Below are positions 8,271-51,353 of a stretch of 64,000 nucleotides of DNA, piece by piece (position 1 is the stretch's first letter; each line of letters starts with the position of its first letter). The notes under the pieces were generated by a model. That model was not told the origin of the DNA, did no database searches, and saw nothing but the letters and a program-made list of their open reading frames with translations. A program made the translations under genes and the position numbers. Origin of the DNA: Deltaproteobacteria bacterium (lineage in GTDB: Bacteria > Desulfobacterota > GWC2-55-46); NCBI GenBank assembly GCA_016182655.1, contig JACPGB010000024.1, positions 156,549 through 220,548 of the forward strand. Reading direction: 5' to 3'.

Positions 8271-9446
8271 ATGGCTTCAAGGATAATCCTTTTTCTTTCC
8301 ATTTTCGCCGTTGCGCACCTATTCCTCTACTTCTCCTTCGCCCGCCTTCTCTCGGTCCCGAAGGGGCGGGCAAGGATGGCGCTATTTGCCTCCGTTTTCC
8401 TCCTTGGCCTCGGCCACATACTCTCCATAATCCTGCTCCGTGTCGACTACAACTCCCTTACAAGGGCGCTATACGCGATTACCGCCGCGTGGACAGGGCT
8501 TGCTGTAAACCTTTTGATGGCCTCAGTCGTCTGCTGGATATTGTTCCTCGTTTTTTGCGTCGCGGGCAAAAAGGCAGTGATACGCAGGACTGCGTCAGTC
8601 ATTTTTGCGGCGGCGTTCCTGTTTTCAGCCTACGGCGTATGGAACGCCTTCCATCCCGTTGTGAGGACCGTAGAGGTCGAGATGCCGGGGCTCGCGGAGG
8701 GCTGGTACAAGAGGACTATCGTGCAGGTGACGGATGCGCACTTAGGGGCGATCTACAGGCCCGGGTATATGAAAAAAGTCGCGGCGCAGATCAACTCGCT
8801 CGAACCAGACCTGATATTCATCACAGGAGACTTATTCGACGGCATGAGCTCCGGCAAGCTCAACGACTTCGCCTCCTCAATAGACGAGCTGAACGCAAAA
8901 GAAGGCGTCTTCTTCGTGACCGGCAACCACGAGAACTACATCGGGCTCGACAGGGTCTTTGATGCGCTCTCGCGTACGAAGGTAAAGGTGCTTAGGGACG
9001 ATGTGGCGGTCATAGACGGCGTCCGGATAATCGGAGTCGATTACCCCGTCTTTGGCGCATCCCGCGATATCGAATCTATCATCCGCAACAGGCCCGGCTT
9101 CAAGGACGGCGCACCCGCCATACTCCTCTATCACACCCCGACCTCCATCGGCAGGAAAGGCGCGGCCTCGTTTTCGGCCCACCAGTCAAGGACCTATTGG
9201 AATCCCGAGCTCGACTTTTCAGCCGTCAAAAGGCTCGGGGTGAGACTCCAGCTCTCAGGCCACACCCACAGGGGGCAGATGTACCCCTTTGTCTGGCTCG
9301 CCGATTATCTCTATAAAGGCTATTCCTACGGGCTTAAGAAAGAGGGGAATCTTTCGATCTACATCTCGAGCGGGCTCGGGACCTTCGGCCCGCCGATGAG
9401 GACAGGGACGAAGGGGGAGATAGTGGTAATCAGGCTTGTGCCTTGA
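8271..9446 (+). CDS. membrane-anchored calcineurin-like metallophosphoesterase
   Basis: The first 130 residues form about four membrane helices (start MASRIILFLSIFAVAHLFLY). A metallophosphoesterase domain follows with the usual di-metal motifs: QVTDAHLG near residue 153, ITGDLFDG, GNHENY, and LSGHTHRGQ near the end. This arrangement matches the YkuE/YaeI group, whose members cleave phosphoester or pyrophosphate bonds of lipids at the outer membrane face. No clear RBS precedes the ATG. A TATAAT hexamer lies only six bases upstream (8259-8264), so a leaderless mRNA is possible. The substrate is unknown. Confidence 0.8.
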   Translation: MASRIILFLSIFAVAHLFLYFSFARLLSVPKGRARMALFASVFLLGLGHILSIILLRVDYNSLTRALYAITAAWTGLAVNLLMASVVCWILFLVFCVAGKKAVIRRTASVIFAAAFLFSAYGVWNAFHPVVRTVEVEMPGLAEGWYKRTIVQVTDAHLGAIYRPGYMKKVAAQINSLEPDLIFITGDLFDGMSSGKLNDFASSIDELNAKEGVFFVTGNHENYIGLDRVFDALSRTKVKVLRDDVAVIDGVRIIGVDYPVFGASRDIESIIRNRPGFKDGAPAILLYHTPTSIGRKGAASFSAHQSRTYWNPELDFSAVKRLGVRLQLSGHTHRGQMYPFVWLADYLYKGYSYGLKKEGNLSIYISSGLGTFGPPMRTGTKGEIVVIRLVP

Positions 9447-9474
9447 TGGAGTGCGCCCTGCGCGTGGCGAGATA

Positions 9475-11181
9475 CTACCTGGGCCCTTTCGCGACCCTTG
9501 AAACCGCCGCCTTCCGCGCTATCTGAAGGTTCCTTAACAAGATATTGTCGTCCGGCACGGCCAAAAGCGCCGCCTCGAAGCTCTTTACGGCATCATCCGA
9601 GCGTCCAAGGGTCATCTGGAAGGCCCCAAGGTCGTTATAGACCGCCTTCAAGTCGTTCTTCGCCTTGAAGACCTTCAACGCCTCGTTGTAATGGAAGAGA
9701 GCGCCCTCTATTGATCCGGTATCGGCCTTCCCGTCTTTAACGCCATTAAGCCTTAACGCAGTGGCGATCGTAAAGTGCGCGCGGCCGAGTATCCTCGCAT
9801 CTTGTGCGGGTCTTAAGGAGTTTATCTCAACGGACCTCCCTGCAATATCCGCGGCCTCGTCGTACGCCTTTCTCTCAAGCAGAAGGCCGGCGAGCTCGTT
9901 CATGGCGTAATAATTGGCCGGGTCCTGCTCTATGGCGCTCCTCCAGAGGGTGCCGTCGTCGCGCCACTCGGGTATCCTTGTGACGACAACAAACGCATAT
10001 ACGGCAACTACGGTTGTCGCGAGAAGCGCAAACGCGGACCATGCCCGCCTCATTGCCGCCTTTCCGAGCAAACGGTCGGAGAGATAGAGGAGAGAGAGAG
10101 CAAAACCAACGACAGGGAGATACATGTATCTTTCTGCGAAAGGGTTTCTGCCGATCCCCGGTATGTACATGACAGGCAGGAGCGGCGCGACCATTAGTGT
10201 GAGACTGAAGAACATGCGTTTGTCCGACCTGAAGGTCTTCACGAATATGAAGGCCATTGCCGCCAGGACAGCGACGGACACAAGGAGCCTCAAGTCGTTC
10301 AGGCCGAAGACCGGCGCGAAGACATGAAAGACGGTAAGGTCCGAAGGTATGACGAGAAATCTCATGTACCCCGCCATAAGCAACGGGACATTAAGAAGCA
10401 CTTGATAAGCGTTGAGGTACGCGTGTTTCGACTGGCCCGGTGCCATGCCGCCGAGCGAATAGGCCCTTAGGAGCAGATAGATCACAATCGCAACCGCGAA
10501 TGGGCCGTACCTGACGAGCGCCCCTGCCCTGTTTGATACTCCCCTCTCGCCGCACCTGTCGTACGCCCATATCACTACGGGAAGCGCCAGCGCAGTCTCC
10601 TTGGAGAGGAGGGCGACAAAAAAGAACGCCGCGGAGAGCAAGGGCGCGCGCGCTTTGTCCGTGCCGATGAAAGCCAGAAACGACAGCAGGAAGAAGAGCG
10701 TGTAGAGAAGCTCGGTGACGCACGCGACCCACGAGACCGCCTCTGCGCCGGCCGGGTGAAGGACGAATATCGTTGCGGCGAAAAACGGCAGGTACGCCGC
10801 GTAAGGGCGTGAGGCCGCGCCGGGGGCCCTTGATAACAGCAATGACGCCGTTATGAAAACGAGGGCGGAGTTCAACGCGTGCAGGATGACGTTCAGCGCG
10901 TGATATGCCGCGGGGTCGAGCCCGAAGAAGCGATAGACGGAGATGTAGGCGACATGTATTAGCGGCCTGTAGGAGTTATAGGCGATGGACCCGCCATGCC
11001 CCTCGAAGTCCCATACGGACGAGAAAAATATTTTTTTAATGCTTGACGGGTCGGTTATCCAGCGGTTCTGAAGCAATTGAAAATTGTCGTCAAAGACAAA
11101 ACCGTTCGACAGGGTGCCGCTGTATGCGAGGATGGATATTAAAAGAACGGCGAGCAGCAGGTGAATATTACGTTTAACCAT
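9475..11181 (-). CDS. multi-pass membrane protein with C-terminal TPRs (TMTC-like)
   Basis: I choose ATG 11181 (MVKRNIHLLLAVLLISILAY), which places the first membrane helix at the N-terminus; an in-frame ATG at 11289 would add an odd 36-residue leader. The first luminal loop has FVFDDNFQLLQNRW and SYRPL, the signature seen in TMTC/ArnT-like glycosyltransferases that use polyprenyl-phosphate sugars. About ten membrane helices follow. Around three tetratricopeptide repeats (about residues 420-550, for example YNEALKVFKAKNDLKAVYND) form the C-terminus. A periplasmic protein glycosyltransferase is plausible given the neighbouring glycan operon, but family members are rarely characterised. Confidence 0.65.
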   Translation of the reverse strand: MVKRNIHLLLAVLLISILAYSGTLSNGFVFDDNFQLLQNRWITDPSSIKKIFFSSVWDFEGHGGSIAYNSYRPLIHVAYISVYRFFGLDPAAYHALNVILHALNSALVFITASLLLSRAPGAASRPYAAYLPFFAATIFVLHPAGAEAVSWVACVTELLYTLFFLLSFLAFIGTDKARAPLLSAAFFFVALLSKETALALPVVIWAYDRCGERGVSNRAGALVRYGPFAVAIVIYLLLRAYSLGGMAPGQSKHAYLNAYQVLLNVPLLMAGYMRFLVIPSDLTVFHVFAPVFGLNDLRLLVSVAVLAAMAFIFVKTFRSDKRMFFSLTLMVAPLLPVMYIPGIGRNPFAERYMYLPVVGFALSLLYLSDRLLGKAAMRRAWSAFALLATTVVAVYAFVVVTRIPEWRDDGTLWRSAIEQDPANYYAMNELAGLLLERKAYDEAADIAGRSVEINSLRPAQDARILGRAHFTIATALRLNGVKDGKADTGSIEGALFHYNEALKVFKAKNDLKAVYNDLGAFQMTLGRSDDAVKSFEAALLAVPDDNILLRNLQIARKAAVSRVAKGPR

Positions 11182-11373
11182 TTTCGGCAATATTACCAGA
11201 AAATGTTTTTTTGTAAATATTAAATCACATAAGACAACAAATATTTTATTTTCAGGCAAGTCTTGCCGGGAAAACGACGGCCCATGCAAACTATCCGAAT
11301 ATTCAGGCGATTGCCTTTACTTTAAAGACGATTGACAGCACCCTTGAACATCCCTCGGGCGTTTGGACCTGAA

Positions 11374-11399
11374 ACAAAAAAGGCGCGATAAGCGCCTTT
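11374..11399 (-). terminator. rho-independent terminator of the liv operon
   Basis: Read on the minus strand this is an AAAGGCGCT / GCGCCTTTT stem around a short loop, followed by a run of T. It lies 40 bases beyond the livF stop and on the right strand to end the liv transcript. Confidence 0.7.
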
Positions 11400-11437
11400 G
11401 CAAAGCCCACGTCACAACCCGGGCAGTCTGCAATCTC

Positions 11438-12166
11438 CTAATTCCCCGGTTTCCCCATGAATACCCGCTCCAGTATGCCGCTGGTCCTGAGGCCTTCGGC
11501 CGTCTCTTCTGCCACGACCTTCCCCTTGTCGAGCACATAGGCGCGGTCGACGATCCCCAAGAGGGATTTCAGGTTGTGCTCGACGACCATGACGGAGGTC
11601 CCCTGGGACTCGTTAATCTCCTTGATTTTCGCGAAGACCTCCTTGATTATCTTCGGAGACAAGCCGAGCGAAGGCTCGTCCAGAAGGAGCGCCCTCGGCC
11701 CGGCCACAAGCCCCCTCGCTATCGCGAGCATCTGTTGCTCTCCGCCTGAAAGGGCCCTTGCCTTTAGCTTCCTCTTTTTTTTGAGCGCCGGGAAGAACGC
11801 GAGGGCCTCTTCCACCCTCCGGCCGGTCTCCACGCGGTCCTTCATAAAATAGCCGCCTATTTCCAGATTTTCTTCTATCGAGAGGTGCGTAAAGACGCGT
11901 CTCCCCTGCGGCACGAGGACGACACCACGGCGGACCATCTCGTGGACGACCGGCGTAAACGGCTTGCCGTCGAGCAGGACCTGGCCTGAATCGAGCGGGG
12001 CGAGCCCGAAGGCCGCCTTAAGGACCGTCGATTTGCCCGCGCCGTTCGGCCCCATGAGCGCGACTATCTCGCCTCTGCGCACGGAGACGTCGACCTTGTC
12101 GAGCGCCTTTACGCCGCCGTAGTGGACTGAAACGCCCTTAAGATGCAGGAGGTCTTCTTTTTTCAT
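11438..12166 (-). CDS. livF: branched-chain amino-acid ABC transporter ATPase LivF
   Basis: A 242-residue ABC ATPase with Walker A GPNGAGKST near residue 40, the LivF-type signature ALSGGEQQMLAIARGL, Walker B LLLDEPSLGLSPKI and the switch His in VEHNL. The family pairs with LivG to drive uptake of leucine, isoleucine and valine (or urea and other amides) through LivH/LivM. The start lies six bases after the livG stop. Downstream is a terminator. Because the permease genes upstream are broken (see livM), this ATPase may no longer have its own channel here. Confidence 0.9.
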   Translation of the reverse strand: MKKEDLLHLKGVSVHYGGVKALDKVDVSVRRGEIVALMGPNGAGKSTVLKAAFGLAPLDSGQVLLDGKPFTPVVHEMVRRGVVLVPQGRRVFTHLSIEENLEIGGYFMKDRVETGRRVEEALAFFPALKKKRKLKARALSGGEQQMLAIARGLVAGPRALLLDEPSLGLSPKIIKEVFAKIKEINESQGTSVMVVEHNLKSLLGIVDRAYVLDKGKVVAEETAEGLRTSGILERVFMGKPGN

Positions 12167-12172
12167 TATGCG

Positions 12173-12928
12173 CTACTCGCCAAGATAGGCCTCTATTACA
12201 TCCTTCCGCTCAAGGACCTCTTCAGGGCTCCCTTCGGCGAGGAACCTGCCGCTGTCCATCACTATCACATGGTCGGAGAGCTCCCTTATGAGGTCCATGT
12301 TGTGCTCTATGAGGATGATGGTCCTGCCCTCGTCCCGGAGCGCCGTTATGATGTTGGATACCGTCTTCACCATCTTCGGGAAGAGCCCCGCGAACGGCTC
12401 GTCGAGGAGGATCATATCCCCCTGCCTCCCGGCGCATAGCGCGAGCACCCTCGCGATCTCCAAAAGTTTCCTCTGCCCGTAGGACAGCCCTCCGGCGAGC
12501 TCGTCCCTTTTTTCCCAGAGCCCGACTTTTTTTAACGCCTCTTCGGCCTGTTTCACATGAAGTGCGCCGTGCCTCTCGAAGAGCGCGCCGAAGACGGACC
12601 GCTCGGTAAGGACGACGAGGACGTTATCGAGGACCGGCATCTGCTCGAAGAGCCTCACCTGCTGAAAGGTCCGCGTCATGCCGTACGAAGGCATGTCAAA
12701 GGGCCTTATGCGCTTGAGCGCGACCGAGTGGAGTACGACGCACCCGCCGTCGATGGAGGCGAGCCCGCTTAAGACATTCGTAAGTGTGGTCTTCCCCGAG
12801 CCGTTCGGCCCGATGACGCTCGTCACCTTGCCCTTGGCAATCGAAATAGAAAGGTCGTCCACCGCACGCACGCCGTCGAAATGCTTTACGAGGTTCCTTG
12901 TCTTGAGTATGGCGTCGGTCTTTGTCAC
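12173..12928 (-). CDS. livG: branched-chain amino-acid ABC transporter ATPase LivG
   Basis: A 251-residue ABC ATPase with Walker A GPNGSGKTT, a Q-loop near MTRFFQQ-like TRTFQQVRLF, signature LSYGQRKLLEIARVL and Walker B ILLDEPFAGLFP. The spacing and the RTFQ and LFP features are those of LivG. Its start overlaps the livM stop (ATGA). Together with livF it would form the energising dimer of a branched-chain amino-acid importer. The ORF itself is intact; only the upstream permease gene is damaged. Confidence 0.9.
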   Translation of the reverse strand: MTKTDAILKTRNLVKHFDGVRAVDDLSISIAKGKVTSVIGPNGSGKTTLTNVLSGLASIDGGCVVLHSVALKRIRPFDMPSYGMTRTFQQVRLFEQMPVLDNVLVVLTERSVFGALFERHGALHVKQAEEALKKVGLWEKRDELAGGLSYGQRKLLEIARVLALCAGRQGDMILLDEPFAGLFPKMVKTVSNIITALRDEGRTIILIEHNMDLIRELSDHVIVMDSGRFLAEGSPEEVLERKDVIEAYLGE

Positions 12929-13416
12929 AGCTTGAACTCCCCGAAAAGCCCCTGCGGCCGGTAAAGCATGAGGACGATGAGGAAGAGCCCGTAGACGACG
13001 TGGCGCATCTGCGCGGCGATTCCCTGCGGGAAACCCGCGAACCTGAGCGCCTCGGGGAGAAGGACGAGGACGAGCGCGCCTACGACCGACCCCTTTAGGG
13101 AAGAGAGCCCGCCGAAGATGATTATCGCGAGTATGAAGACCGACTCCATCACCGTGAAGCTCGACGGATCGACGAAGTTTATGTAGGAAGCTACAAGCGA
13201 CCCCGCGACAGCCGCCATGCCTGCGGATATGACGAATATGGCGAGCTTGAAATAGACGGTGTTGTACCCGAAGACCTGTATGGCCTTCTCGTCCTCGCGA
13301 ATGGACTTAAGGACCCTGCCGAACGACGAGCGCGCTACGAACCTGGCGGCAAGGAACGAGAGAGCGAGGAAGAAGGCGGCGAGCGCGAGAAAAAATATGC
13401 CGGAGGAGAACTCCAT
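12925..13416 (-). pseudogene. livM: livM, 3' half only (truncated permease)
   Basis: The 163 readable residues match only the C-terminal half of LivM permeases: GRVLKSIREDEKAIQVFGYN, the EAA-like coupling loop region, then helices ending MLYRPQGLFGEF. A full LivM is about 300 residues or more with N-terminal helices, and those are absent. Immediately upstream the sequence turns into integrase coding DNA in another frame. The ATG at 13416 is an internal Met and not a natural start. livH and the binding-protein gene, normally upstream, are also missing from the window. The gene is either broken by a deletion or misassembled. Confidence 0.8.
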
Positions 13417-14243
13417 TCCGCTTTCTTGCAGGCCGAGGAAAAAGACCGCTTCAGGTCCCTGAACCTCCTGCCAGCCTTGTCCGTGAAAACATAGGGGCTG
13501 TTGATGTGCCGCACAAGGCCCTGGAACACGCCCTTCAAGATCTGGTTGATGGGAACCTCGCGCCGCTCGCCGTTCTTGGTCCTGTCGAGGAGTATGAACC
13601 CGTGCTTCAGGTCAACATGCTTTCCCCATTCGAGGGAAAGTATCTCCTCTCTCCTCATGCCGGTGTTAAGCGCGGTTATCACGATAGGCTTCAAGTGCGG
13701 TTCGCAGGCGTTTATTAGGGCCTGCCCTTCCACCCTTGAAAGGAACCGTAAGCGCCTGTTGTTCTCCGGCAGCAGCTTGACCCGGCGCACGCGCTTCAAG
13801 ACCTCCTCTTCAACCAGCTCCCATTCAACGGCCTTGGTGAACATCGCCTTCAGCGTCTGTAGGTACCTGTTCGCCGTCGAGATGGTCCTGCCGGAATCGG
13901 TAAAGCCGCGGTAGTAGAGCTCAACCGTTCGCGTCGTGAAATCCTTGAGCTCAAGCCTCCCGAACGCCTCAATGAGATACTTGACATGAGTTTTCTTGTC
14001 TTTGTAGGCCCGCTGCCATTCTGCCCACTTCAGGACCTGGTTCGCGAGATCACAAAAAGGCGTCTTCCCGTCGATCTTAGCTGGCGCGCCGAGCTGTTTT
14101 TCCTCCAACTCGATTAACCGGCTTGCGTGCTTTCGTTGAGCGAGTTTTTTGTTATCCGTGCCGGTGGATTCGTAAATCCGTCGGCCTTCGACCCTGAAGG
14201 ACATCCACCAGTGCGGCGAGTCCTTTCGTTTGTAGAGGCCCAT
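13335..14243 (-). pseudogene. int: tyrosine recombinase/integrase, 3' end lost
   Basis: Start ATG 14243 follows an ideal AAAGGAGGT. Residues 1-276 match phage-type tyrosine integrases: an N-terminal strand region, a SAM-like core-binding domain, and a catalytic domain with the first Arg in LNTGMRREEILSL (Arg197/198) and the Lys in RTKNGERREVP. After SFSSACKKA (about residue 275) similarity stops, and the remaining 26 residues are an out-of-frame reading of livM. The HxxR box, the His/Trp and the nucleophile Tyr are all missing, so the product should be inactive. It would have excised or integrated the island to its right. The excisionase-like gene lies 4 bp upstream. Confidence 0.85.
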
Positions 14244-14247
14244 TTGC

Positions 14248-14457
14248 CTATACCTCCTTTCCGGGCCTTCTACCTGCACGGCCAATATTATACACCCTTT
14301 TCTGGTCCTTTAGCCAGTCGAGGATCTCCTTCTCGTCAAACCGCAGAAGGCCGTTTATCTTGAAACACGGGATCTGCCCGAGCTCCGCCCACTGGTAGAC
14401 GGTCGATGGCTTTGCCTGGATAAGTGCGCAGATTTCTTTAACACTGAGCAGTTTCAT
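14248..14457 (-). CDS. AlpA/Xis-like helix-turn-helix excisionase
   Basis: A 69-residue protein from ATG 14457, behind an AAGGA site. MKLLSVKEICALIQAKPSTV is followed by YQWAELGQIPCFKINGLLRF and EKEILDWL, the MerR-like winged helix of the AlpA/HTH_17 family used as excisionase or element regulator. It precedes and is close-coupled to the integrase gene, the usual arrangement for directionality factors of tRNA-integrated islands. It appears intact although the integrase is truncated. Confidence 0.8.
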   Translation of the reverse strand: MKLLSVKEICALIQAKPSTVYQWAELGQIPCFKINGLLRFDEKEILDWLKDQKRVYNIGRAGRRPGKEV

Positions 14458-14677
14458 TCCTTGCGGCTCGCTCCTTTTAGAATTTGGAGCGCTGTAGCTC
14501 CATACCTGTGTATTACTTTCAGGATAGGAATTAAGTGTTAGGCGGGGTCGCATCGGGAAAGGCTGCCTTGATGGGGACGGGGGCTATTAAGATAGATTTA
14601 CTTAACTAATAATTTATGATAATGAACATAAATAGGATAAGCATAATAAAATTTATGGAATAATCAGAAAAGAACTC

Positions 14678-15268
14678 ATGAAAACAAAACCGCGCATATT
14701 TATTATAGAATCCCTCCGTTTTTCTGACGAAAAAAAAGATTTATTTGAGGGGAAGATATTATCCCAGATTCTCAAAATTAGCCGCTCTGAAGCAGAGTAC
14801 GTATACATTCGTACCAAGAAGGAACTTGAGAAAGTAATTGACAATTTTGGAGATAGTGGCTACCGATACCTTCATTTTTCCTGTCATGGCAATAGTAGAG
14901 GCATAGGTCTTACTTTAGACGATCTTTCTTTTGAGGAACTCGGAGAAATACTCGCACCATGCCTTGATAAGCGGAGAGTGTTTTTCTCTTCATGCAAGGT
15001 AATGAATGAAAAACTAGCCGAGGTCCTCCTCAAAGGCACTGGTTGTTACTCGGTGATTGGTCCATCCGAGTCTATTAACTTTGATCGAGCAGCGATTTAC
15101 TGGGCATCTTTCTATCATCTAATGCTTCGTGATGAAGCCGTATCGATGAAACGGGAAAAATTGAAAGAACACACGGCCACGTTGCAAAAATTATTCAGTA
15201 TACACATGCGATATTTTTCTACATCCAAGAGTGCAAAAAATGGTTTTAAGGAAGTTCTTTTGAGCTAA
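14678..15268 (+). CDS. small stand-alone caspase-like (CHAT-type) protein
   Basis: A 196-residue protein with the clan CD peptidase layout. A hydrophobic strand before the catalytic His gives YLHFSCHG (His70), and a second strand gives RRVFFSSCK (Cys106), followed by GCYSVIGPSESINFDRAA as in CHAT domains. There are no TPR, WD or TIR domains on the chain, so any sensor must be another protein. It is the first gene inside the island, with AT-rich upstream DNA unlike the core. Caspase-like proteases in prokaryotic conflict systems often cleave a partner or host proteins after phage sensing. That role here is inference from context. Confidence 0.6.
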   Translation: MKTKPRIFIIESLRFSDEKKDLFEGKILSQILKISRSEAEYVYIRTKKELEKVIDNFGDSGYRYLHFSCHGNSRGIGLTLDDLSFEELGEILAPCLDKRRVFFSSCKVMNEKLAEVLLKGTGCYSVIGPSESINFDRAAIYWASFYHLMLRDEAVSMKREKLKEHTATLQKLFSIHMRYFSTSKSAKNGFKEVLLS

Positions 15269-15383
15269 CAAATCACTCTTCGCACAAGTAATTTGGCCTC
15301 TATAATATGAACAATTAGTGCAAGCATTCAGTCAAGTCATTCGAGGAATGTTCTGCTGACAAAGCGAGCTTAGGTTAATTTAA

Positions 15384-16292
15384 ATGAATAATTCATATTT
15401 TAGTGATCGTGAGATTGGTCCAAAACCTCGTATAAAAGAGGTTGTCAATATCGAGGCTTGGGGTGGCATTGTCTCAATAATTGGGTCTCTTATTGATAAC
15501 GGGTCCTTTGGTATAGAATTTCCCGCAGTATGTCCGGATGGCCTTGGTATTATCGGAACTGACTTCCAAAAACTTTCGCTTGCTGTCCGCGCAGAGATTC
15601 CAGATTTACCATGGCCAATTCCGCCAATTTCAACTTCAACTTGGCCAAGTACAGAACCAGCAGTTCCATCAACGCTATCAATTTTGGACTTAATTGAATT
15701 CTGTCATAGGAATATCGCTCAACCTGTAAAAGGAAGCCATCATTCTTTTTTTGGTCATTATCATCTTGATTTCAATTACGATGAAGGTCGGACAGACTTT
15801 AGGCAAAAAATTAATCGCATACTGGCTCGGAATGGACTTGTCTATGAGTTGCAAAAAGACGGCCAGATAATCCGATTGGCTCCTCCTATTCTAAGGGAAG
15901 TACTTCAGTCTACGACATTCAATACGGGCGATTCAGAATTGGATGTTATGCTTGAAGCAGCAAGAAAAAAGTTTCTCGCCCCTAGTTTAGAAGTACGTCG
16001 TGAATCGTTAGAAAAACTTTGGGACGCTTGGGAACGCCTCAAAACAATTGTGCCCGGAAAGGATAAAAAAGCTTCAATTAAAACGTTACTTGAAAAAGCG
16101 GCACCCGAGATTAAGTTTCGGCAAATACTTGAATCTGAGGCACATGACCTGACCGAAATAGGAAATAATTTTCAAATTCGTCATAGCGAGACAACAAAGA
16201 TTCCAATAAAAATTAATGAGCATATAGATTACTTATTCCATCGTCTCTTTGCCATGATTCAACTTCTTTTAAAAAACAAGTTAGGGTTATGA
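15384..16292 (+). CDS. AbiJ-like protein of unknown function
   Basis: A 302-residue protein. The start MNNSYFSDREIGPKPRIKEV resembles the N-terminal domain (AbiJ_NTD4-like) shared by abortive-infection proteins. The C-terminal third, with DAWERLKTIVPGKDKKASIK, then EIGNNFQIRHSETTKIPI and HIDYLFHRLFAMIQLLL, resembles an all-helical domain common in restriction- and toxin-associated hypothetical proteins; RHSE could be a HEPN-like R-H pair. Base composition is low GC like its neighbours, a CHAT-type protein and an Mrr nuclease. The family assignment rests on memory of these motifs. A defence role is inferred. Confidence 0.45.
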   Translation: MNNSYFSDREIGPKPRIKEVVNIEAWGGIVSIIGSLIDNGSFGIEFPAVCPDGLGIIGTDFQKLSLAVRAEIPDLPWPIPPISTSTWPSTEPAVPSTLSILDLIEFCHRNIAQPVKGSHHSFFGHYHLDFNYDEGRTDFRQKINRILARNGLVYELQKDGQIIRLAPPILREVLQSTTFNTGDSELDVMLEAARKKFLAPSLEVRRESLEKLWDAWERLKTIVPGKDKKASIKTLLEKAAPEIKFRQILESEAHDLTEIGNNFQIRHSETTKIPIKINEHIDYLFHRLFAMIQLLLKNKLGL

Positions 16293-16390
16293 TGTTTTAA
16301 GTTCATGACAGCTTGTCCTTTTTCTCGAACAGGTCTTCAAAACTGCGTTTTTTACTAGAATTGATAAATACAGAGGAAGGACGATACAGA

Positions 16391-17260
16391 ATGAAAAAAA
16401 AGAGAAGCTCTCAAGCGGAATTTGTAAAGTGGTTTGGACCTCTTTTAGATGCCTTAAGAGAGCTTGGCGGCTCAGGAAGACCAAAAGAGGTTTCTTCTAA
16501 AATTGCCGAAAACTTGAAGCTTCCGAATAAGATTCTTGAAGAATCTATATCGTCGGGTGCCCTAAAATTTCACAATCAGGTGCAATGGGCAAGGCAATAT
16601 CTTGTTTGGGAAGGACTCCTCGATTCCTCCAAGCATGGAATCTGGGCATTGACGCAAAAAGGAAGTCAAACACGTTTAACTGAAAAAGAATCACGCGACA
16701 TTTTCCTTAAGTGGGTTGATATTCATCAAAAAGCACGCAAGAACAAGACAAAAGCTGATATCGTAGAAGAACAAGAGGGGACAGAACCAGATACTTTTGA
16801 AACAGCGTACAGTCCAAATTTGTTGGAAATTTTGCAAAAACTAACTCCGAAAGGATTTGAGCAAGTCTGTAAACGCCTTCTCAGAGAATCAGGTTTTGAA
16901 AAAGTTGAGGTAATAGGAAATCCCCACGATGGGGGAATTGACGGATTTGGAACTTTGGAAATCAACCCGTTCGTTAGCTTCAAGGTTTTATTCCAATGCA
17001 AACGATATCAAGGCACTGTTTCAAGAGCACAGGTTGGTGATTTTAGAAACGCGATGATCGGCCGCGCTGAAAAAGGAATTATTATGACAACAGGAACATT
17101 TTCTGCAGACGCTCTTAAAGAGGCAAACCGAGAAGGTGCACCTAAGATTGAGCTTGTAGATGGAGAAAAGCTTGTTGAAATGTTTAAAAAAGTCGAACTT
17201 GGAATGAAGCAAAAAATTGTTTATGAAGTTGATTTGTCCTTCTTCGAACAATTTATGTAA
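16391..17260 (+). CDS. mrr: Mrr-type restriction endonuclease
   Basis: From ATG 16391 (GGAAGGA upstream at 16376; an earlier in-frame start at 16313 lacks a good site) the product is 289 residues. The N-terminal Mrr_N winged helix ends in GLLDSSKHGIWALTQKG. The C-terminal PD-(D/E)xK domain has LTPKGFEQVCKRLLRESGF, then GNPHDGGIDGFG with the metal Asp, and FQCKRY with Q-x-K. Mrr enzymes cut methylated foreign DNA. The C-terminal tail (QKIVYEVDLSFFEQF) is typical of the family. A terminator follows. The gene is intact and probably active. Confidence 0.85.
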   Translation: MKKKRSSQAEFVKWFGPLLDALRELGGSGRPKEVSSKIAENLKLPNKILEESISSGALKFHNQVQWARQYLVWEGLLDSSKHGIWALTQKGSQTRLTEKESRDIFLKWVDIHQKARKNKTKADIVEEQEGTEPDTFETAYSPNLLEILQKLTPKGFEQVCKRLLRESGFEKVEVIGNPHDGGIDGFGTLEINPFVSFKVLFQCKRYQGTVSRAQVGDFRNAMIGRAEKGIIMTTGTFSADALKEANREGAPKIELVDGEKLVEMFKKVELGMKQKIVYEVDLSFFEQFM

Positions 17261-17270
17261 AAGTGAAACT

Positions 17271-17296
17271 CCGCCGATAGAAGTCGGCGGTTTCTT
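17271..17296 (+). terminator. terminator after mrr
   Basis: CCGCCGA, a six-base loop, then TCGGCGG and a T-rich stretch, ten bases after the mrr stop. A second hairpin (about 17341-17360, AGGC/GCCT) follows without a T run. Confidence 0.65.
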
Positions 17297-17473
17297 CAGT
17301 TACAAGCCTTCGTCTTGGGTCCTTCGGACAGCCGCTCCATCACTAGGCAGGAGCCTGGTGTTTTATGTGGCCAAATAAAGGAACTTTAATATCTCGCCTT
17401 GCAACCGCCTGCTTGTCTTTTACTCCCAAAAATCTCAAATTTTCAAACAAAAAACACAATATATTCATGGCTT

Positions 17474-17487
17474 TTCAAAAATTTGAA
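17474..17487. promoter_or_regulatory. 14-bp palindrome in the promoter of the HTH gene
   Basis: TTCAAAAATTTGAA is a perfect palindrome 46 bases before the ATG of the HTH protein, in an AT-rich stretch that also holds TATATAAG (about 17501-17508). It could be an autoregulatory operator. No binding evidence is visible beyond symmetry and position. Confidence 0.35.
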
Positions 17488-17533
17488 TAAAAAAAGTAAT
17501 ATATAAGGAGGGATCAGAGCAAAGGAGGTTTTC

Positions 17534-18235
17534 ATGGAAGAACGCACAGTAATGGATACCGGGGAGAAGCCCGGCCAGGGCCTGGATGGGGCTAATAAAA
17601 CATCTATCACAGACAATTCAAATATGAGCCCTGCCCCCTCTGAGGCTCGGGCGACAAATAAGCCGCCAACATTCAGGAGGGAACTACTCAATAAATTACT
17701 CGACAGGAAGGTCATGTATGAGGACATCCGGACTTACAGGCTGTCGGATCTGGATATAGAATACCTTTTTCTATGTGATAGCGTTAGCAAGCGCGAGTAT
17801 CTCAAATTGATGAAAGTGGTCGGGTTTTCAAGGAGAACGGCCTATAGGAAGTGGTGGAAAGGGAGCTTTAGGAATTTTGACTACAAGCCCTTCGAGGACA
17901 TAAGGTCGAAGATGATATGGATTGGCGCCGATGCCGAGGCCAAGAGGGTGAAAGAATGGCTTGATACGAAGCGTGCTGTTAGCATACCCGCACGAGAAAT
18001 TTTTCGCTCCATAAAAGATTATGTAGTCGAACTTCTGGGCAGAGTGCGCGCCGATCTCTACAATAAGAAGACCCTTCGCACCAAGGAGGTCGCTAAAGTG
18101 CTTGGCATAAGCACTCGGCATGTACGCCGGCTAACGCAAAAAGGGAAACTGAGAAAAGAAGGGCGGGGCGTGTTCTCAAAAGAGCATATTGCCGAGTGGA
18201 AGCAAAACCAATGTCCGCCTGACGAGCCAAATTGA
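17534..18235 (+). CDS. MerR/Xis-type HTH protein of an unknown module
   Basis: A 233-residue protein behind a strong AAAGGAGG. Residues 1-60 are low-complexity and polar. The middle has a possible first HTH (YLKLMKVVGFSRRTAYRKWW). The C-terminus has a MerR/excisionase-like fold: TLRTKEVAKVLGISTRHVRR then LTQKGKLRKEGRGVFSKEHI. The last codons (CPPDEPN, stop) lie inside the first copy of the hairpin-array unit that continues downstream. Array and gene are therefore physically joined, and the array may be the binding target or the 3' UTR of this gene. I do not recognise the family. Confidence 0.6.
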   Translation: MEERTVMDTGEKPGQGLDGANKTSITDNSNMSPAPSEARATNKPPTFRRELLNKLLDRKVMYEDIRTYRLSDLDIEYLFLCDSVSKREYLKLMKVVGFSRRTAYRKWWKGSFRNFDYKPFEDIRSKMIWIGADAEAKRVKEWLDTKRAVSIPAREIFRSIKDYVVELLGRVRADLYNKKTLRTKEVAKVLGISTRHVRRLTQKGKLRKEGRGVFSKEHIAEWKQNQCPPDEPN

Positions 18236-18860
18236 CCGAAAAGCGACACTATGATGTTAATGTCGTTTAGAGTCAACTTTTGACTGAAAGCGACGTGAGG
18301 AGCGAATGTCGTTTTAAGTCCACTTAGACTTGCAAGTGACATGCGTCCGTTTGATATGCCAAATAGACCAAAAAGGGACATCGTGTCCCTTTAGAGTCAA
18401 TTTTAGACTGAAAGGGGACCTAATGTCCCTTTTCAGTCCACTTAGACTGCCGAGCAGCATGGCGTCCGCTCGAAGTGCCAAATGGACTTAAAAGCGACAT
18501 TGGGATGTCGCTTCGGGGTCAACTTTAGACTGGAAAGCGACATGAAGATGTCGTCTTCGAGTCCAATATGTGGTCATGTGTCCGCCTGATGTGCCAAATT
18601 GACTAAAAAGGGACAAATGTCCTCTTAGAGTCCATTTTGGACTGAAAGCGGACAAATGTCCTTTTGGAGTCCATTGAGATCAGGAGAAATGATGTCCGCT
18701 TAGCGTGCCATTTTGACCACAAAGGGACACACGAATCCCTTTGGAGTCAAATTTGGACTGGAAGGGGACTTGATGATGTCCCTTTTGAGTCAACTTTAGA
18801 AGAAATGGCCCAAATTTGTCCCATTTCCCTCGAAGAATGAGGGGCCAATTGTTAAAAGGG
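18212..18860 (+). repeat. array of five degenerate 114-132 bp units made of alternating hairpins
   Basis: Unit starts, marked by a (T/C)GTCCG box followed by TGCCAAAT-like sequence, are at 18212, 18344, 18463, 18579 and 18693. Each unit holds an A hairpin (AAAGnGAC ... GTCnCTTT), a B hairpin (AGTC, 6-7 bases, GACT), then a second A and usually a second B. In units 1 and 3 the A stem is GCGAC/GTCGC (or wobble GTCGT); in units 2, 4 and 5 it is GGGAC/GTCCC. Both arms change together, which points to a selected structure. Two looser hairpins with GGGACAAATT end the array near 18850. Candidates are an iteron-type origin, a protein-binding array or a structured RNA. Confidence 0.75.
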
Positions 18861-19402
18861 ACAAATTTAGCCCATTTCTCATCACATTATAGAAACAGGC
18901 TCTTTTGTAGCTAAAGCAGATACCGATAGTTTTGTTCATGATCGTTATAGAGAGCATCTGCCCAGGTTGATTTTATAAAAAAGTAAAAAAAAACGGTAAA
19001 AACACCTCGGCCAGGAAACGATATGGACTGAATCGACCGCTGTTCAAATCTTAGAAGCATTGTTTCGATCTGAATCTTTTTCCCGCGTTTCAAAATTTTC
19101 TCGCCAGCAGCCAACTAATTTTCCAATCATTCGCGGTAATACATACTTGGAGGTCAAATCTCCATCAGGGTTGCGTATGGCAACCCACCTTTTCAGTAGG
19201 CTTTGGCCGAAACCGCTTTTTTGAAAAGTTATTTCTCAAAAGCGGTAGTGCGTGCAAAAACAGGTTTTATCAGGTTTTTAACGACATAACATATAAGACT
19301 TTATATGTCGAATGTACAAAAATTGATCGGGACGCCGCAAAAATCTGATTTACGGCCCCCTTCAGCGCGGCTTTGTTCTAATCATCTATCACGGAGGACG
19401 GT
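18861..19402. other. non-coding stretch with several hairpins
   Basis: No convincing gene is visible. Noted structures are GGGTTGC/GGCAACCC at about 19169-19188, an imperfect ACCGCTTTT / AAAAGCGGT inverted repeat at about 19209-19243, and the operator-like repeat at 19282-19310. The stretch separates the hairpin array from the paralogous gene pair. It is likely control DNA for that pair. Confidence 0.4.
19282..19310. promoter_or_regulatory. operator-like inverted repeat upstream of the paralogue pair
   Basis: CGACATA and TATGTCG form the outer arms, with ATATAA/TTATAT nested inside; the repeat ends 92 bases before the ATG at 19403. It is suitable for a dimeric repressor or a short RNA hairpin. 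Confidence 0.35.
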
Positions 19403-19780
19403 ATGGTAAACACAAAAATTGCTGACCTGGTTCAATGCGTAGCCGAGCTTGAGGAGTCTTCACGCCGGGCTTTTGTGGAAAACCTTTTTGGTGCGTTTGG
19501 TGAAAGAGAGCGTTCCCGGCTGGTTCAGTGGGTTTGCCATTGTGCCTACCCAAAGACCAGATGGAGCAAGGTGGATAGGTGGATGGAGGGGCAGTTCCGG
19601 CGGGACATGAACAAGACTCCACGAAAGACAGCTTCTATAGCCGTCAGCTACTTCAGGATCAACCCGAAGATGTTGCCGTTCCTCATAAAGACGGCACAGC
19701 GGATCAAGCTGAGGGTTCGGGCGAGAAGGCGCTTACACCCGGAGGAATTCGCGGATTTGAGGGAGGCTGGAAAAGCATAG
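19403..19780 (+). CDS. unknown protein, first of two tandem paralogues
   Basis: A 125-residue protein with a good GGAGG site. It aligns over most of its length with the product of 19938-20234: LEESSRRAFVENLFGAF pairs with LEEAYQRHFVETLFECF, VQWVCHCAYPKTRW with FEWVSHLVYPESKW, and FRINPKMLP with FGINPKMMP. The pattern is alpha-helical with conserved W, Y and P and a C-terminal basic tail (KLRVRARRRLHPEE). There are no catalytic motifs. A short alpha-helical nucleic-acid-binding or adaptor protein is possible. I do not recognise the family. Confidence 0.6.
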   Translation: MVNTKIADLVQCVAELEESSRRAFVENLFGAFGERERSRLVQWVCHCAYPKTRWSKVDRWMEGQFRRDMNKTPRKTASIAVSYFRINPKMLPFLIKTAQRIKLRVRARRRLHPEEFADLREAGKA

Positions 19781-19937
19781 CGAGCCCTTCGGTGGTTTGG
19801 CGCGTTCAGTGGTTCAGCGCGTTCTGTCTTTGGTTTTGGGTAGAGCGGTTGCGATGTTTCTTGACGCAGTGCAAATAAAAAGCCGCCCGGCGATTGAGGG
19901 GCATACAGGCTAACAGTACAAAAAGGGGAGGATTGAT

Positions 19938-20234
19938 ATGAGGACCAGTCTCAGGGAAAGGGTGGCGCGTCTCGCAGGTCATGTAAGTCGTCTTGAAGAG
20001 GCGTACCAGAGGCATTTTGTTGAAACCCTGTTCGAATGTTTTAGCGAAGAAGAGCGGCTTAAGCGGTTCGAGTGGGTCAGCCACTTGGTATATCCCGAGA
20101 GCAAATGGCTCAAAATCACTAACTGGATGGAAAAAGTCTTTACGCAGGACATGAAGAAGACCCCGGTGGGAGTGGCCTATATGTGCATGCAGTTTTTCGG
20201 GATCAATCCAAAGATGATGCCAAATGAGCGCTGA
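19938..20234 (+). CDS. unknown protein, second tandem paralogue
   Basis: A 98-residue protein behind GGGGAGG, paralogous to the protein at 19403-19780 (shared HFVETLFECF, WVSHLVYPESKW, INPKMMP). It lacks the basic C-terminal tail of its sister. The duplication and the retained start signals show that both copies are under selection. Immediate context is the hairpin array to the left and the ubiquitin-like operon, on the opposite strand, to the right. Its function is unknown. Confidence 0.6.
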   Translation: MRTSLRERVARLAGHVSRLEEAYQRHFVETLFECFSEEERLKRFEWVSHLVYPESKWLKITNWMEKVFTQDMKKTPVGVAYMCMQFFGINPKMMPNER

Positions 20235-42786: not shown

Positions 42787-42835
42787 CGCGCTCATAACCC
42801 GAAGGTCGCAGGTTCAAATCCTGTCCCCGCTACCA
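42787..42835 (+). tRNA. 3' fragment of a tRNA-Met (CAT) gene, island attachment end
   Basis: The fragment starts at the anticodon loop CTCATAA and continues through ACCCGAAGGTCG, the T arm (GGTTCAAATCC) and the acceptor strand ending CCA. The 5' half is absent, and upstream DNA is unrelated island sequence. The ACCC stem base pairs resemble an initiator type. This is what the distal attachment site of an element inserted into the 3' half of a tRNA gene looks like. The original tRNA terminator follows. Confidence 0.75.
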
Positions 42836-43025
42836 AAATAAAAAAAAGAGGGCGTCCCTGGACGCCCTCTTTTTTTTATTTCTGACGGCAGGATTTGAAA
42901 GCAACCGAGCGCCGAGCGAAGAGCGAGGAAGAGGCCTTTCGGGAGAAAGGCCGGAAGCGAGTTTGCCCGGCCAGAGTGAGAAAGCGGGAGCGAGCGAACG
43001 CGGCCAAATCCTGTCCCCGCTACCA
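42815..43025 (+). repeat. 21-bp direct repeat of the tRNA-Met 3' end (att core)
   Basis: A 21-bp core, CAAATCC ... GCTACCA, is found at 42815-42835 and again exactly at 43005-43025. The first is the end of the tRNA fragment; the second has no tRNA around it. The 170 bp between hold a terminator and a GAGCGA-rich block (42893-43004) with a CCTTTC/GAAAGG hairpin. Two att cores suggest two elements used the same tRNA. Confidence 0.7.
42847..42877. terminator. bidirectional terminator behind the tRNA fragment
   Basis: AGAGGGCGTCC / GGACGCCCTCT around a 2-base loop, with A-run before and T-run after. It is probably the original tRNA terminator, and it also insulates the two accessory segments. 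Confidence 0.85.
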
Positions 43026-44223: not shown

Positions 44224-45207
44224 ATGACAAGGGCTAAGCATCCGATGATAAAATTCAGCCTGATATTGAAAGCCTTAAGCCCTATTGCGTTGCCGACGTA
44301 CAAGGGTAGCACGCTTCGAGGCGGCTTCGGCCATGCTTTCAAAAAAGTTATCTGTACTGTAAGAAATAAAGAGTGTAGCGACTGCCTTCTTAAAACAAAG
44401 TGCATATATTCATATGTATTTGAAACCCCGCCTCCCGAAGATTCACGGATACTCCGCAAGTATGAAAAAGCCCCCCATCCCTTCGTTATAGAGCCGCCCT
44501 TTGAGACAAAGACGAATTATCAACCCGGCGACACCATTACTTTCGGTCTCGTACTCATAGGAAGGGCTGTTGAATACCTCCCTTACTTCATCTATACCTT
44601 TGAAGAACTTGGAAAGATGGGAATAGGGAAGGGAAAAGGCAAATATGAACTGATGGATGTGAACTACGAAGGAAAGCAGATATACAATTCAGTGGATAGA
44701 CAATTAAAACCGGTAATTCATAACTCCCCTTCCATCCCCTCTTACATTAAGAGAGGAAAAGAGGAGATTCCACCCTCGGACAATGGGAAATTGAATAGGA
44801 TTACTCCTGACTGTGATCTCCTAACTCTTAACTTTACTACCCCTACCCGCATCGTAGTAAATGAAGACCTTGTCGTTGACCTCGAATTCCATCACCTCAT
44901 AAGAAGCCTGCTCAGGCGCATCTCTACCCTTTCATACTTCCACTGCGGAGAAAGGCTTGACCTCGACTTCAAAGGTCTCATAGAAAGGGCGCAGAGTGTG
45001 AAGGTGAAAGAAAGAAAAACAGAGTGGCATGATTGGGAAAGATATTCCGCGAGGCAGGACACGAGGATGAAGTTAGGCGGATTTGTTGGGCGAGCTGTTT
45101 TTCGCGGAGAGTTTGCCGAATTCATGCCGTTTTTGAAGGTAGGCGAGACGCTTCACGTGGGCAAGGGTACGAGCTTCGGGCTGGGCAAGTACAGAATGGA
45201 GTCATGA
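44224..45207 (+). CDS. cas6: Cas6-family CRISPR RNA endonuclease
   Basis: A 327-residue RAMP protein. The N-terminal ferredoxin-like half has ALPTYKGSTLRGGFGHAFKK, and a Cys pair (ECSDCLLKTKC) is typical of the Cas6 family with a zinc knuckle. The C-terminal half ends in the Gly-rich loop HVGKGTSFGLGKYRM. It cuts the pre-crRNA in the repeat to leave the 8-base 5' tag (ATTGAAAC here). The start could also be ATG 44245. It overlaps cas10. Confidence 0.85.
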   Translation: MTRAKHPMIKFSLILKALSPIALPTYKGSTLRGGFGHAFKKVICTVRNKECSDCLLKTKCIYSYVFETPPPEDSRILRKYEKAPHPFVIEPPFETKTNYQPGDTITFGLVLIGRAVEYLPYFIYTFEELGKMGIGKGKGKYELMDVNYEGKQIYNSVDRQLKPVIHNSPSIPSYIKRGKEEIPPSDNGKLNRITPDCDLLTLNFTTPTRIVVNEDLVVDLEFHHLIRSLLRRISTLSYFHCGERLDLDFKGLIERAQSVKVKERKTEWHDWERYSARQDTRMKLGGFVGRAVFRGEFAEFMPFLKVGETLHVGKGTSFGLGKYRMES

Positions 45208-47843
45208 AAATGGAATCTTTGTATAATAGCGTCGTGCTCGCCGCGCTCCTCCATGACATAGGTAAGCTTATTCACCGTCAAAGCGGAGCTAAGTACCATC
45301 AGACAGGTGGACATGCCAAGGCGTCATACGATTTTGTAGAAAAACACGCCGGGAAATTAAAAAATTGCGACCTTTATGACATAGACCTCGTTGCTTTTCT
45401 CGTCAAGAGTCACCATTCGTATACAGCAAAAGACATATATATACCTCAATGCTTAAAAGGCACGCCCGAAGAAGAGGTAAAGAAGAAAATTCATGACCTC
45501 GTCAGGATAGTGAAGGACGCGGACAGCTATTCTTGCACGGAAAGAGACAAAGACGAACAGGACAAGAGAGACGGCGAAAAAAGACTTGCCAGACTCGATT
45601 CCATATTCTCCTGCATGAGCATTGAAACAACGGCACGTACCGAGTGGGCCAAAAGCCAATATAATCTCGGCGAGCTTGACCCGGCACGAAATTTTCCTGA
45701 TAGTTCATTTAAGGAACTCAATGATAGCGATATTCATAGTCATATAGAAAAACTCGAATCGGCTCTGCCCGATTTCTCACACTTCAAGAAGTTCGACGCC
45801 GTGCTCGCCGCATGGATAGACCTCCTTGAAAGGTACACATGGTGCGTGCCGAGCGATACGCGCTACGAGTTTACCGACATCTCGCTCTTCGATCACCTGA
45901 GAAGCTCGGCGGCAATCGCCGCATGCCTCTATAGAACCCACGAAGATGAGATAGGAACATGGTCTTTTAGCAGAAAAGAAGAGATAACTCTCGTTGCGGG
46001 CGATTTTTCAGGCATACAGGACTATATATTTCACATAACCAACGTCGGCACAGGCGGCGCGGCCAAGAGGCTCCGTGCTCGATCTTTTTACGTAACGCTA
46101 TTTACCGAGGCAACGGTGCACAAGGTTCTCCACGCCTTAAATATGCCGTTGCTATGCAACATATTTTCGTCTGGCGGCAAATTCATGCTCCTCGTGCCGA
46201 GTAAAGATAAAGAAGAAATGGATAAAAAACTTCAACAGGTCAAAAAGGAGATTGAACGGGAAATCCATAAACATCACTTTAGCGTCTTTTCCTTCCTTAT
46301 GTCGTGGAAGGCTATCAAGTCTTTTAAAAAAGACATGAAGGTGCTGGACTTCGTCGAACTCGCGGGCGAGATGTTCCACATGCTCGAGACCGAAAAGGCC
46401 GGCAGGGCCCGCGGCGCTCTTACTGCCGCTGATGGCCGATGGGACCCCGGGGCCTTCAAGGCGACAAAACTCTACGAGTCATACGGCACTCACGGCGACT
46501 GCAAGGTCTGCGGCCGGGGACCGGCGGAACGAAACGACGGAGAGGGAGGCGATGTCGGCACGTGCCGTTTTTGCCATAGAGACAAAGAGATTATTGGAAA
46601 AAAACTCCCAAAGGCCGACTACGTCGCCTTTGGGAGGGGACGGCCAACTGAAGGAGACGGCAGGATATGGCTCTTTGACCCGGCGGGGGACGGCTGTGAC
46701 GGATACTATGCCGAGATACTTGAAGGAAAGACTGAAAAAACAGATGACTTTTATCTCGTCTACGCCTTGAGTGACGTAGCCGCAACAGATACGCTCTCAC
46801 CCAGTCAGCCTTCAATAAAAAGATTTATAGCAAACCACGTGCCGACAGAGAATGGCGCCGGTGATATCCTCCCATTCGACAAGATCGCCGAACTCTCGCG
46901 CTGGACGAAAGATAGCATGGAATACGGGAGCGACCTCCTTGGCGTGCTCAAGGTAGATATAGACAACCTTGGTCTCCTCTTCAGCAAGGGTTTCGAGTTT
47001 AAAAGGAACGGCAACGAGGGCGAAAATTGTGACCGCAAGACGCCGTCCCGGTTTCTGACCCTCAGCAGGATGATAGACCTTTTCTTCTCCGGCTGGATGA
47101 AAAAGTCTCTCGCCTGCTCCGATACGGAAGGCGTCAAAAAAAGGTTTGCAGGGCTGGAAGAGAGCTCCAGCGCACTGCTCGGCGGTTACCTCGACAAATC
47201 CTGCATCGACTTAAAAAATATTTACACGGTTTATTCTGCAGGAGATGACATGGTTTTGGTCGGCCCATGGGAGACGATGATAGTGTTTGCCCTTTACCTC
47301 CATCAGAGCTTTACAAGTTTCACCGGTGGGAACCCTTCCTTCACCATTTCGGCCGGGCTTGCCTTTGTGAAGCCTAAATATCCTGTGGCCTATGCCATAA
47401 GGCTCGCGGATGAGCTGTTGGAAAAATCCAAGGAAAGCGAAAAAAACAGGATTACCCTGTTCGGCACAACGGTTGAATGGAAGGCTATGGACAAGCTCGT
47501 GGACTTCTTTCTTAGTCTTGATAAATTTTTTAACGACAAAAAATCCAAAGTCAACGCGTCCTTCCTTTACAGACTGCTCGGCTACAACGAGATGGCCCTT
47601 GATTATGTAAAGAATAAGAAAGTGAATGGCCTCAAATATCTCTCGGCCCTGAGCTACGATATAGAAAGGAACATAATAAAGAGGAACAAGGACGGACGGA
47701 TCATAAGCGGCGAAGAAGAGCAAAGGTTATTCGAAGTCCTGCAAGGACACGCGGTGCCGAAAGATGACTCCATTATAAGCAACATCAAGATACCGGTTTT
47801 TTGGGCTTTATATCGGAATAGGAGGGCTGACAGGGATGAGTGA
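45204..47843 (+). CDS. cas10: Cas10/Csm1, large subunit of the type III-A effector
   Basis: A 879-residue protein from ATG 45204 (ATGA overlap with cas6). HD nuclease: LLHDIGKLIHR (His17, Asp18), with KSHHSYT later. Zinc knuckles: CKVCGRG and CRFCHRD. First palm: GVLKVDIDNLG. Second palm: the cyclase motif reads A679-G680-D681-D682 in YSAGDDMV, in place of the usual GGDD. D4 helical domain at the end. The HD domain cuts ssDNA, and the palm makes cyclic oligoadenylate. The Gly-to-Ala change is mild, so activity is uncertain. Confidence 0.9.
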   Translation: MKMESLYNSVVLAALLHDIGKLIHRQSGAKYHQTGGHAKASYDFVEKHAGKLKNCDLYDIDLVAFLVKSHHSYTAKDIYIPQCLKGTPEEEVKKKIHDLVRIVKDADSYSCTERDKDEQDKRDGEKRLARLDSIFSCMSIETTARTEWAKSQYNLGELDPARNFPDSSFKELNDSDIHSHIEKLESALPDFSHFKKFDAVLAAWIDLLERYTWCVPSDTRYEFTDISLFDHLRSSAAIAACLYRTHEDEIGTWSFSRKEEITLVAGDFSGIQDYIFHITNVGTGGAAKRLRARSFYVTLFTEATVHKVLHALNMPLLCNIFSSGGKFMLLVPSKDKEEMDKKLQQVKKEIEREIHKHHFSVFSFLMSWKAIKSFKKDMKVLDFVELAGEMFHMLETEKAGRARGALTAADGRWDPGAFKATKLYESYGTHGDCKVCGRGPAERNDGEGGDVGTCRFCHRDKEIIGKKLPKADYVAFGRGRPTEGDGRIWLFDPAGDGCDGYYAEILEGKTEKTDDFYLVYALSDVAATDTLSPSQPSIKRFIANHVPTENGAGDILPFDKIAELSRWTKDSMEYGSDLLGVLKVDIDNLGLLFSKGFEFKRNGNEGENCDRKTPSRFLTLSRMIDLFFSGWMKKSLACSDTEGVKKRFAGLEESSSALLGGYLDKSCIDLKNIYTVYSAGDDMVLVGPWETMIVFALYLHQSFTSFTGGNPSFTISAGLAFVKPKYPVAYAIRLADELLEKSKESEKNRITLFGTTVEWKAMDKLVDFFLSLDKFFNDKKSKVNASFLYRLLGYNEMALDYVKNKKVNGLKYLSALSYDIERNIIKRNKDGRIISGEEEQRLFEVLQGHAVPKDDSIISNIKIPVFWALYRNRRADRDE

Positions 47844-48099
47844 TTATAGGGCGCTTGTCGTATCAGACATATTTAATGTCAAAACAGATGATTGCCTGCA
47901 TGAAGTCTTCACGCACGTTATGTCGTGTGTGTCTTCCCACTTTTTGAGTTCATACTCAACCGATGAAGATGTGTATCATATTAACGATTTAATGCGACAG
48001 TGTTTGGAAGATATTTACGTTAAGAATGAAAGGGCTGTTCTGGCGCAAATAACTAAACGGCAAAAAACACTTAAGAAGGGAACGGGGGCTAAATCATGA
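47836..48099 (+). CDS. unknown small protein between cas10 and csm2
   Basis: An 87-residue protein (start MSDYRALVVSDIFNVKTDDC) overlapping cas10 by eight bases and csm2 by four, so it is translated within the operon. It is helical with a basic tail (AQITKRQKTLKKGTGAKS). I know no such gene in the standard csm order. It may be an accessory subunit or a regulator. Confidence 0.6.
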   Translation: MSDYRALVVSDIFNVKTDDCLHEVFTHVMSCVSSHFLSSYSTDEDVYHINDLMRQCLEDIYVKNERAVLAQITKRQKTLKKGTGAKS

Positions 48100-48527: not shown

Positions 48528-48528
48528 G

Positions 48529-51352: not shown

Positions 51353-51353
51353 T

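Follow-up and report, generated by a model that had tools for sequence, protein, structure and literature searches.

The window, a stretch of 64,000 nucleotides from a Deltaproteobacteria genome, carries a gene for an HTH protein followed on the same strand by an array of palindromes. Both lie on an integrative element, of which the integrase, an excisionase-like gene, and one attachment site are recognisable. The features discussed below are as follows.

13412..14285, minus strand: tyrosine integrase of the host element (Pfam Phage_integrase), its 3' end lost at the livM junction
14248..14553, minus strand: excisionase-like HTH_17 gene (Pfam HTH_17, E 1e-11), found beside the integrase gene in a related island too
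17534..18235, plus strand: HTH gene, 233 aa, C-terminal winged HTH of the excisionase/MerR type; the constant partner of the array
18212..18800, plus strand: palindrome array, five superunits with 14 palindromic units of 32-48 nt
18231..18362, plus strand: superunit 1 (a1 18231-18278, a2 18279-18323, a3 18324-18362), GCGAC/GTCG variant
18363..18481, plus strand: superunit 2 (b1, b2, b3), GGGAC/GTCCC variant
18482..18597, plus strand: superunit 3 (c1, c2, c3), GCGAC/GTCG variant, conserved in three islands
18598..18711, plus strand: superunit 4 (d1, d2, d3), GGAC/GTCC variant
18712..18794, plus strand: superunit 5, shortened (e1, e2), GGGAC/GTCCC variant
42790..42837, plus strand: right attachment site, a 48-bp copy of the 3' part of tRNA-Met

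The host island and its palindrome array

The host element is a tRNA-Met-integrating island bearing anti-phage defence genes. The same 48-bp copy of tRNA-Met bounds an orthologous island of about 38 kb in genome G038, and in G038, G034, and G013 the HTH gene and array lie near a tyrosine integrase adjoining tRNA-Met, together with an excisionase-like gene where one is listed. Full-length integrase homologues of 400 aa are encoded at three related loci (L010-L012). The cargo differs from island to island and includes Mrr, AbiJ-like, and ThiF/JAB-type genes by Pfam, and further ORFs that by eye resemble type I restriction-modification and similar genes; the HTH gene is core to islands with differing cargo. 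In the window and G038 islands, reading of the ORF lists and Pfam searches on part of them recognised no replication, partition, or transfer gene.

Several other features of the region were recorded. The integrase is broken at about 13412 and fused to the 3' half of livM (13335-13416), and contig C47 of the same genome holds the reciprocal join, in which the rest of the integrase and tRNA-Met are fused to the other half of livM. Only a few bases are shared at the junction, and the join may be a genuine rearrangement or else a reciprocal chimera of the assembly. A shorter second copy of the tRNA-Met 3' end (21 bp, 43005-43025) lies about 170 bp past the right attachment site and may be left over from another integration. 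Small paralogous proteins of about 100-127 aa, lacking a confident Pfam family, are encoded in tandem at 19403-20234; they occur on all main-subfamily islands and in G015, and three genomes that lack the HTH gene have them too. Finally, a tandem repeat with a period of about 74 at 51416-51971 is CRISPR-array-like, and by reading alone the ORF at 44224 resembles Cas6 and the one at 45033 a Cas10 with an HD domain, which suggests that a putative type III CRISPR system (region 44224-51971) adjoins the island.

The array itself is built from superunits of 114-132 bp (start-to-start spacing 132, 119, 116, and 114 bp), five in number as originally predicted. A full superunit consists of three palindromes of about 39 nt (h1, h2, and h3), delimited by cuts through the AT-rich middle of each AGTC...GACT palindrome; the fifth lacks h3. 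Both h1 and h2 have an inner stem AAAGSGACA/TGTCSCTTT with outer arms GACY/AGTC and read TKGACYnnAAAGSGAC-loop-GTCSCTTTnnAGTCMA, while the h3 units are degenerate and bear GTCCGCTTGAAGTGCCAAAT. A C/G swap on both arms distinguishes superunits 1 and 3 (GCGAC/GTCG) from 2, 4, and 5 (GGGAC/GTCC), with d2 as a partial exception (GCGGAC/GTCCTTTT), and AGTC...GACT palindromes sit between the inner stems; both traits had been noticed beforehand, as had the overlap of the first unit with the 3' end of the HTH gene. The array had been placed at 18212-18860. Its start is unchanged, but its true end lies near 18800, about 60 bp earlier, and 18801-18879 is a separate inverted repeat in DNA that has no counterpart in the orthologous G038 island. 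The array is single-copy in its genome.

A single consensus fits the 5' arms and the reverse-complemented 3' arms alike. The array is therefore a chain of one 16-nt element, TKGACYnnAAAGSGAC, in alternating orientation. One arm position differs systematically, being C in 18 of 30 5' arms and T in 27 of 30 reverse-complemented 3' arms. Because both unit length (32-51 nt) and inner loop (3-16 nt) vary, the elements follow no fixed helical phase.

Linkage to the HTH gene and conservation between islands

A covariance model of the h1-h2 pair (R1) was searched in 63 genomes of the class. It found arrays at six loci, in every case immediately downstream of a gene homologous to the 17534 HTH gene, and each of the full-length homologues has an array (6/6). 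The original prediction had proposed looking for the array beside these homologues, and the search bears out a conserved element that accompanies them and looks functional. The same model found no further arrays in a phylum sample of 395 genomes that partly overlaps the class set, where a stricter cut-off and filters were used and the short G015 array was lost. Homologues of the HTH gene were found in one taxonomic family only, that of the window, with six full-length copies in five genomes, one of them on Deltaproteobacteria MAG contig JADLDY010000074.1, and a remnant in G027. Profile matches beyond the class were not taken as homologues, as the HTH segment alone aligns. Neither an HTH homologue nor an array was found in phage, plasmid, and viral records or viral collections; pattern-scan matches in viral contigs were unrelated terminator-like hairpins only and were rejected.

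Arrays occur at a single locus per genome, except for two in G034. At all loci read, the array is on the strand of the HTH gene and begins at or over its 3' end, and at full-length loci the stop codon lies either inside the first palindromes or at their edge. Two of the loci, G015 and G034b, form a second subfamily with the order sigma-like gene, HTH gene, two or three palindromes, and ParB_N-like gene, so that the array is flanked by two genes on the same strand. The ParB-like gene is absent from main-subfamily genomes except G034. The palindromic stems also differ by subfamily (AGTCCA/TGGACT versus GTAACC/GGTTAC).

Near the arrays of the second subfamily, and divergent from the sigma-like/HTH/array/ParB-like cluster, is a gene for a protein of about 209 aa that by eye resembles the NusA KH region (L014:3020-3649 and L013:11055-11684); the L014 copy has no Pfam or PHROGs match. 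L014 also holds a satellite-like separate element between copies of the tRNA-Gln end (8373-16750), with an integrase, a D5-type primase-helicase, and a small terminase subunit. At the HTH remnant of G027 (L015:8748-9519), where the array has decayed, a RAYT-like transposase ORF and REP-like sequence were noted by eye.

The HTH protein gives only HTH-type domains in PHROGs and Pfam (best HTH_17, E 2e-10, residues 181-226). In its structure model (six sequences, mean pLDDT 65), residues ~178-228 align over about 50 residues with BldC, Xis, GIsul2 Xis, RdfS, MerR proteins, and pSK1 Par (Z 4.9-7.1); a winged-HTH fold as modelled here is of a common kind, and sharing it would show no function. A fold search with the N-terminal helical domain gave weak matches only (best Z 5.0). 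Several excisionase, BldC, and pSK1-Par-type proteins bind multiple sites cooperatively.

Between the window and G038, identity is higher in the array (89%) than in the HTH coding sequence (81%), and drops to a barely alignable 51% in the flank past the array, similarity ending sharply at the array end. Stems differ at 7% of positions in orthologous hairpins and loops at 22%, and superunits 1-5 occur in identical order with identical variants. Conservation above that of the gene, of stems above loops, and of superunit order together indicates, from sequence comparison, an old array maintained by purifying selection.

Folding and apparent compensatory changes

Folded as a single strand, the array is far more stable than its shuffles on both strands (z = -12.6 on the plus strand and -18.8 on the minus strand), and no shuffle equalled either value. 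The C/G swaps on both arms had been taken to mean that pairing is under selection. Covariation of the arms does exceed that of 500 shuffles in an alignment of 30 units, mainly through one pair (columns 15-38: GC in 16 units, CG in 11, and three unpaired exceptions), but it is not specific to hairpin partners. Arms that are not partners, the h1 5' arm with the h2 3' arm, covary at least as well (GC 8, CG 7, no exceptions), and the alternative AGTC-centred pairing likewise beats most shuffles. Since non-partner arms covary equally, the variants are common to whole superunits, and independent swaps have therefore probably been few. Long-range pairing within a superunit may also be compatible with this test.

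Orthologous hairpins give a similar picture. Of the stem-pair changes that separate the window from G038, 15 are one-sided, five of them breaking the pair, and one is two-sided, which falls in a shifted stretch of the alignment. Stem changes being few and mostly one-sided, what is kept is the arm sequence. Concordant changes on two arms were seen only in G034a, where GGAC became GGAAC and GTCC became GTTCC in d1 and d2. Among stem mismatches, G-T and A-C number 28 and 39 over the whole stem and 17 and 12 in the inner stem, and a strand test of G-U against A-C on three sets of hairpins (by search, by sequence pattern, and by alignment) showed no strand bias in any version. With A-C mismatches at least as frequent as G-T over the whole stem, RNA-type tolerance of G-U is not evident on either strand, although the inner stem taken alone leans to G-T. 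The claim that compensatory mutations prove the hairpins thus does not hold as stated, for non-partner arms covary equally, orthologue changes are nearly all one-sided, and mismatches show no overall G-U bias. Concerted change, such as template switching between inverted-repeat arms, a known process that homogenises them (PMC8794818), accounts for the pattern as well.

Comparison with known systems and candidate functions

The original prediction knew no described repeat of this form, and we likewise found no description of such an array in the literature on repeats, HTH genes, and islands, a survey that covered papers outside subscription. Iteron clusters come close in having many copies of a ~16-20 bp element beside a DNA-binding protein gene carried by a mobile element; however, iterons keep one orientation and regular spacing whereas the array elements alternate and are irregularly spaced, and no Rep gene was recognised beside the array by Pfam or PHROGs, although the HTH protein, whose N-terminal domain has no recognised family, may be an initiator of an unrecognised kind. 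Between 17250 and 19500 there is a single DnaA box, at 19482 and outside the array, and the only AT-rich 100-bp windows, at 17400 (0.72) and 18900 (0.67), are not inside it. Centromere-like arrays (pSK1 Par, R388 StbA, ParB/parS) share an HTH gene beside a repeat array, as at the six loci. The DNA-binding domain of pSK1 Par aligns with the C-terminus of the HTH protein (Z 4.9, 49 residues, 2.9 A), and the likeness to ParB/parS, a ParB_N-like gene after the array, is confined to G015 and G034b. The present array differs in consisting of palindromes and lying behind the gene; no partition gene was recognised in the window island, nor a ParB-type or NTPase partner in main-subfamily islands.

BIME/REPIN elements (alternating REP palindromes associated with RAYT transposases) likewise consist of non-coding palindromes that alternate and vary in their stems, but the array is not dispersed and always lies behind one gene family. 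Integron attC arrays likewise keep palindromic folding despite variable sequence and have a tyrosine recombinase gene nearby; here there are no cassettes between array units, and no GTTRRRY or RYYYAAC core site was found on either strand of 17250-19500. The RNA of type III toxin-antitoxin systems (ToxI) consists of tandem structured repeats of ~36-39 nt, but the array stands behind an HTH gene rather than before a toxin, and no ToxN-like gene is among the annotated neighbours. CsrB/RsmZ sponge RNAs resemble it as a long chain of hairpins; a CsrA sponge was rejected because just 10 of 30 units have GGA in the inner loop. None of the described families matches in every tested feature, and iteron, attC, BIME, and CsrB-type arrays each fail at least one defining feature. 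Of the functions offered in the original prediction, an iteron-like origin, a regulator sponge, and a small-RNA family are all still candidates.

The array is probably a landing site for the adjacent HTH protein, because among 63 related genomes it is found only beside that gene. Strict linkage, an arm sequence shared by both arm types, and the nature of the protein together favour a protein-DNA module over the other readings. Specifically, we tentatively propose, as the best candidate though still short of an even chance, a cis-acting cluster of HTH-protein sites that would serve the island in excision, replication, or segregation. On this view, the HTH gene and array together are a core module shared by a family of defence islands that integrate at tRNA genes. 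The winged-HTH domain would bind the array half-sites, each with two blocks (TKGACY and AAAGSGAC), and the protein would build a large nucleoprotein complex at a single site on the island. Such a complex would probably act in the island's mobile life, in excision, replication of the excised circle, or segregation, as iterons and centromere-like arrays do, rather than in ordinary repression, because the array sits behind the gene and not at a promoter. Against a cluster of sites stand the systematic C/T difference between the arms, needless if the sites are equivalent; a strong hairpin potential that double-strand binding makes superfluous; the variable spacing; and the lack of any recognised replication, partition, or transfer gene among the ORFs read on the window and G038 islands.

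Alternatively, the array could act as structured RNA, either as the 3' untranslated region of the HTH gene or as an HTH-ParB intercistronic region whose hairpins stabilise mRNA or bind a protein or RNA. Its position on the coding strand at the gene's 3' end, its place between two same-strand genes in G015 and G034b, plus-strand folding, stems kept amid variable loops, and the NusA-KH-like gene (by eye) adjoining the module in G015 and G034b all agree with this. We nevertheless consider it unlikely, as the opposite strand folds even better, the sense strand has no overall G-U bias, and covariation extends to non-partner arms; moreover, no Rfam family exceeded its cut-off on either strand (the best, a microRNA model, reached 34.9 bits where 88 are needed), and no sense-strand terminator-like site was detected at the array end. 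Still more doubtful is that palindromes extruded as single-strand hairpins or cruciforms are read by a replication, transfer, or recombination protein, as at a single-strand origin or oriT-like site. A chain of palindromes with variable loops on an integrative element with known ends would suit such a role, as would the palindromic nature of both stem types in both subfamilies despite their different sequence; yet the islands examined yielded no recognisable relaxase, Rep, or primase gene, the primase next to the G034b module being part of the separate element that has its own attachment sites, and orthologue changes often break the pair. Together, the RNA and the single-strand or cruciform readings hold a substantial minority of the probability. 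Comparably doubtful to extrusion is a new maintenance module of HTH protein and array in which the extrudable palindrome chain itself, as DNA or RNA, would be recognised and template switching would keep it in register.

Two further explanations appear quite improbable. If inverted-repeat arrays grow by duplication and template switching equalises their arms, pairing could arise as a mutational by-product without function, which fits the sharing of mostly one variant by the arms of a superunit, partners or not. This leaves unexplained why conservation is higher in the array than in the neighbouring gene and higher in the stems than in the loops, why five superunits stand in the same order in two islands, and why the array was never found without the HTH gene. 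Scarcely more or less credible is a regulatory sponge that titrates the HTH protein off a promoter such as that of int/xis: many sites adjoin the gene of the protein, which in the islands is near xis and int, but a motif scan of the loci read, which requires two arms and would overlook single half-sites, found no second cluster of elements as a target.

The array also offers a worked warning that apparent compensatory changes in an inverted-repeat array can be common to non-partner arms and are hence no proof of RNA structure. The HTH gene and array make up an unannotated core module of two parts on integrative islands with anti-phage defence genes, and so offer a way to approach the movement or persistence of islands in which no transfer or replication gene is recognised.
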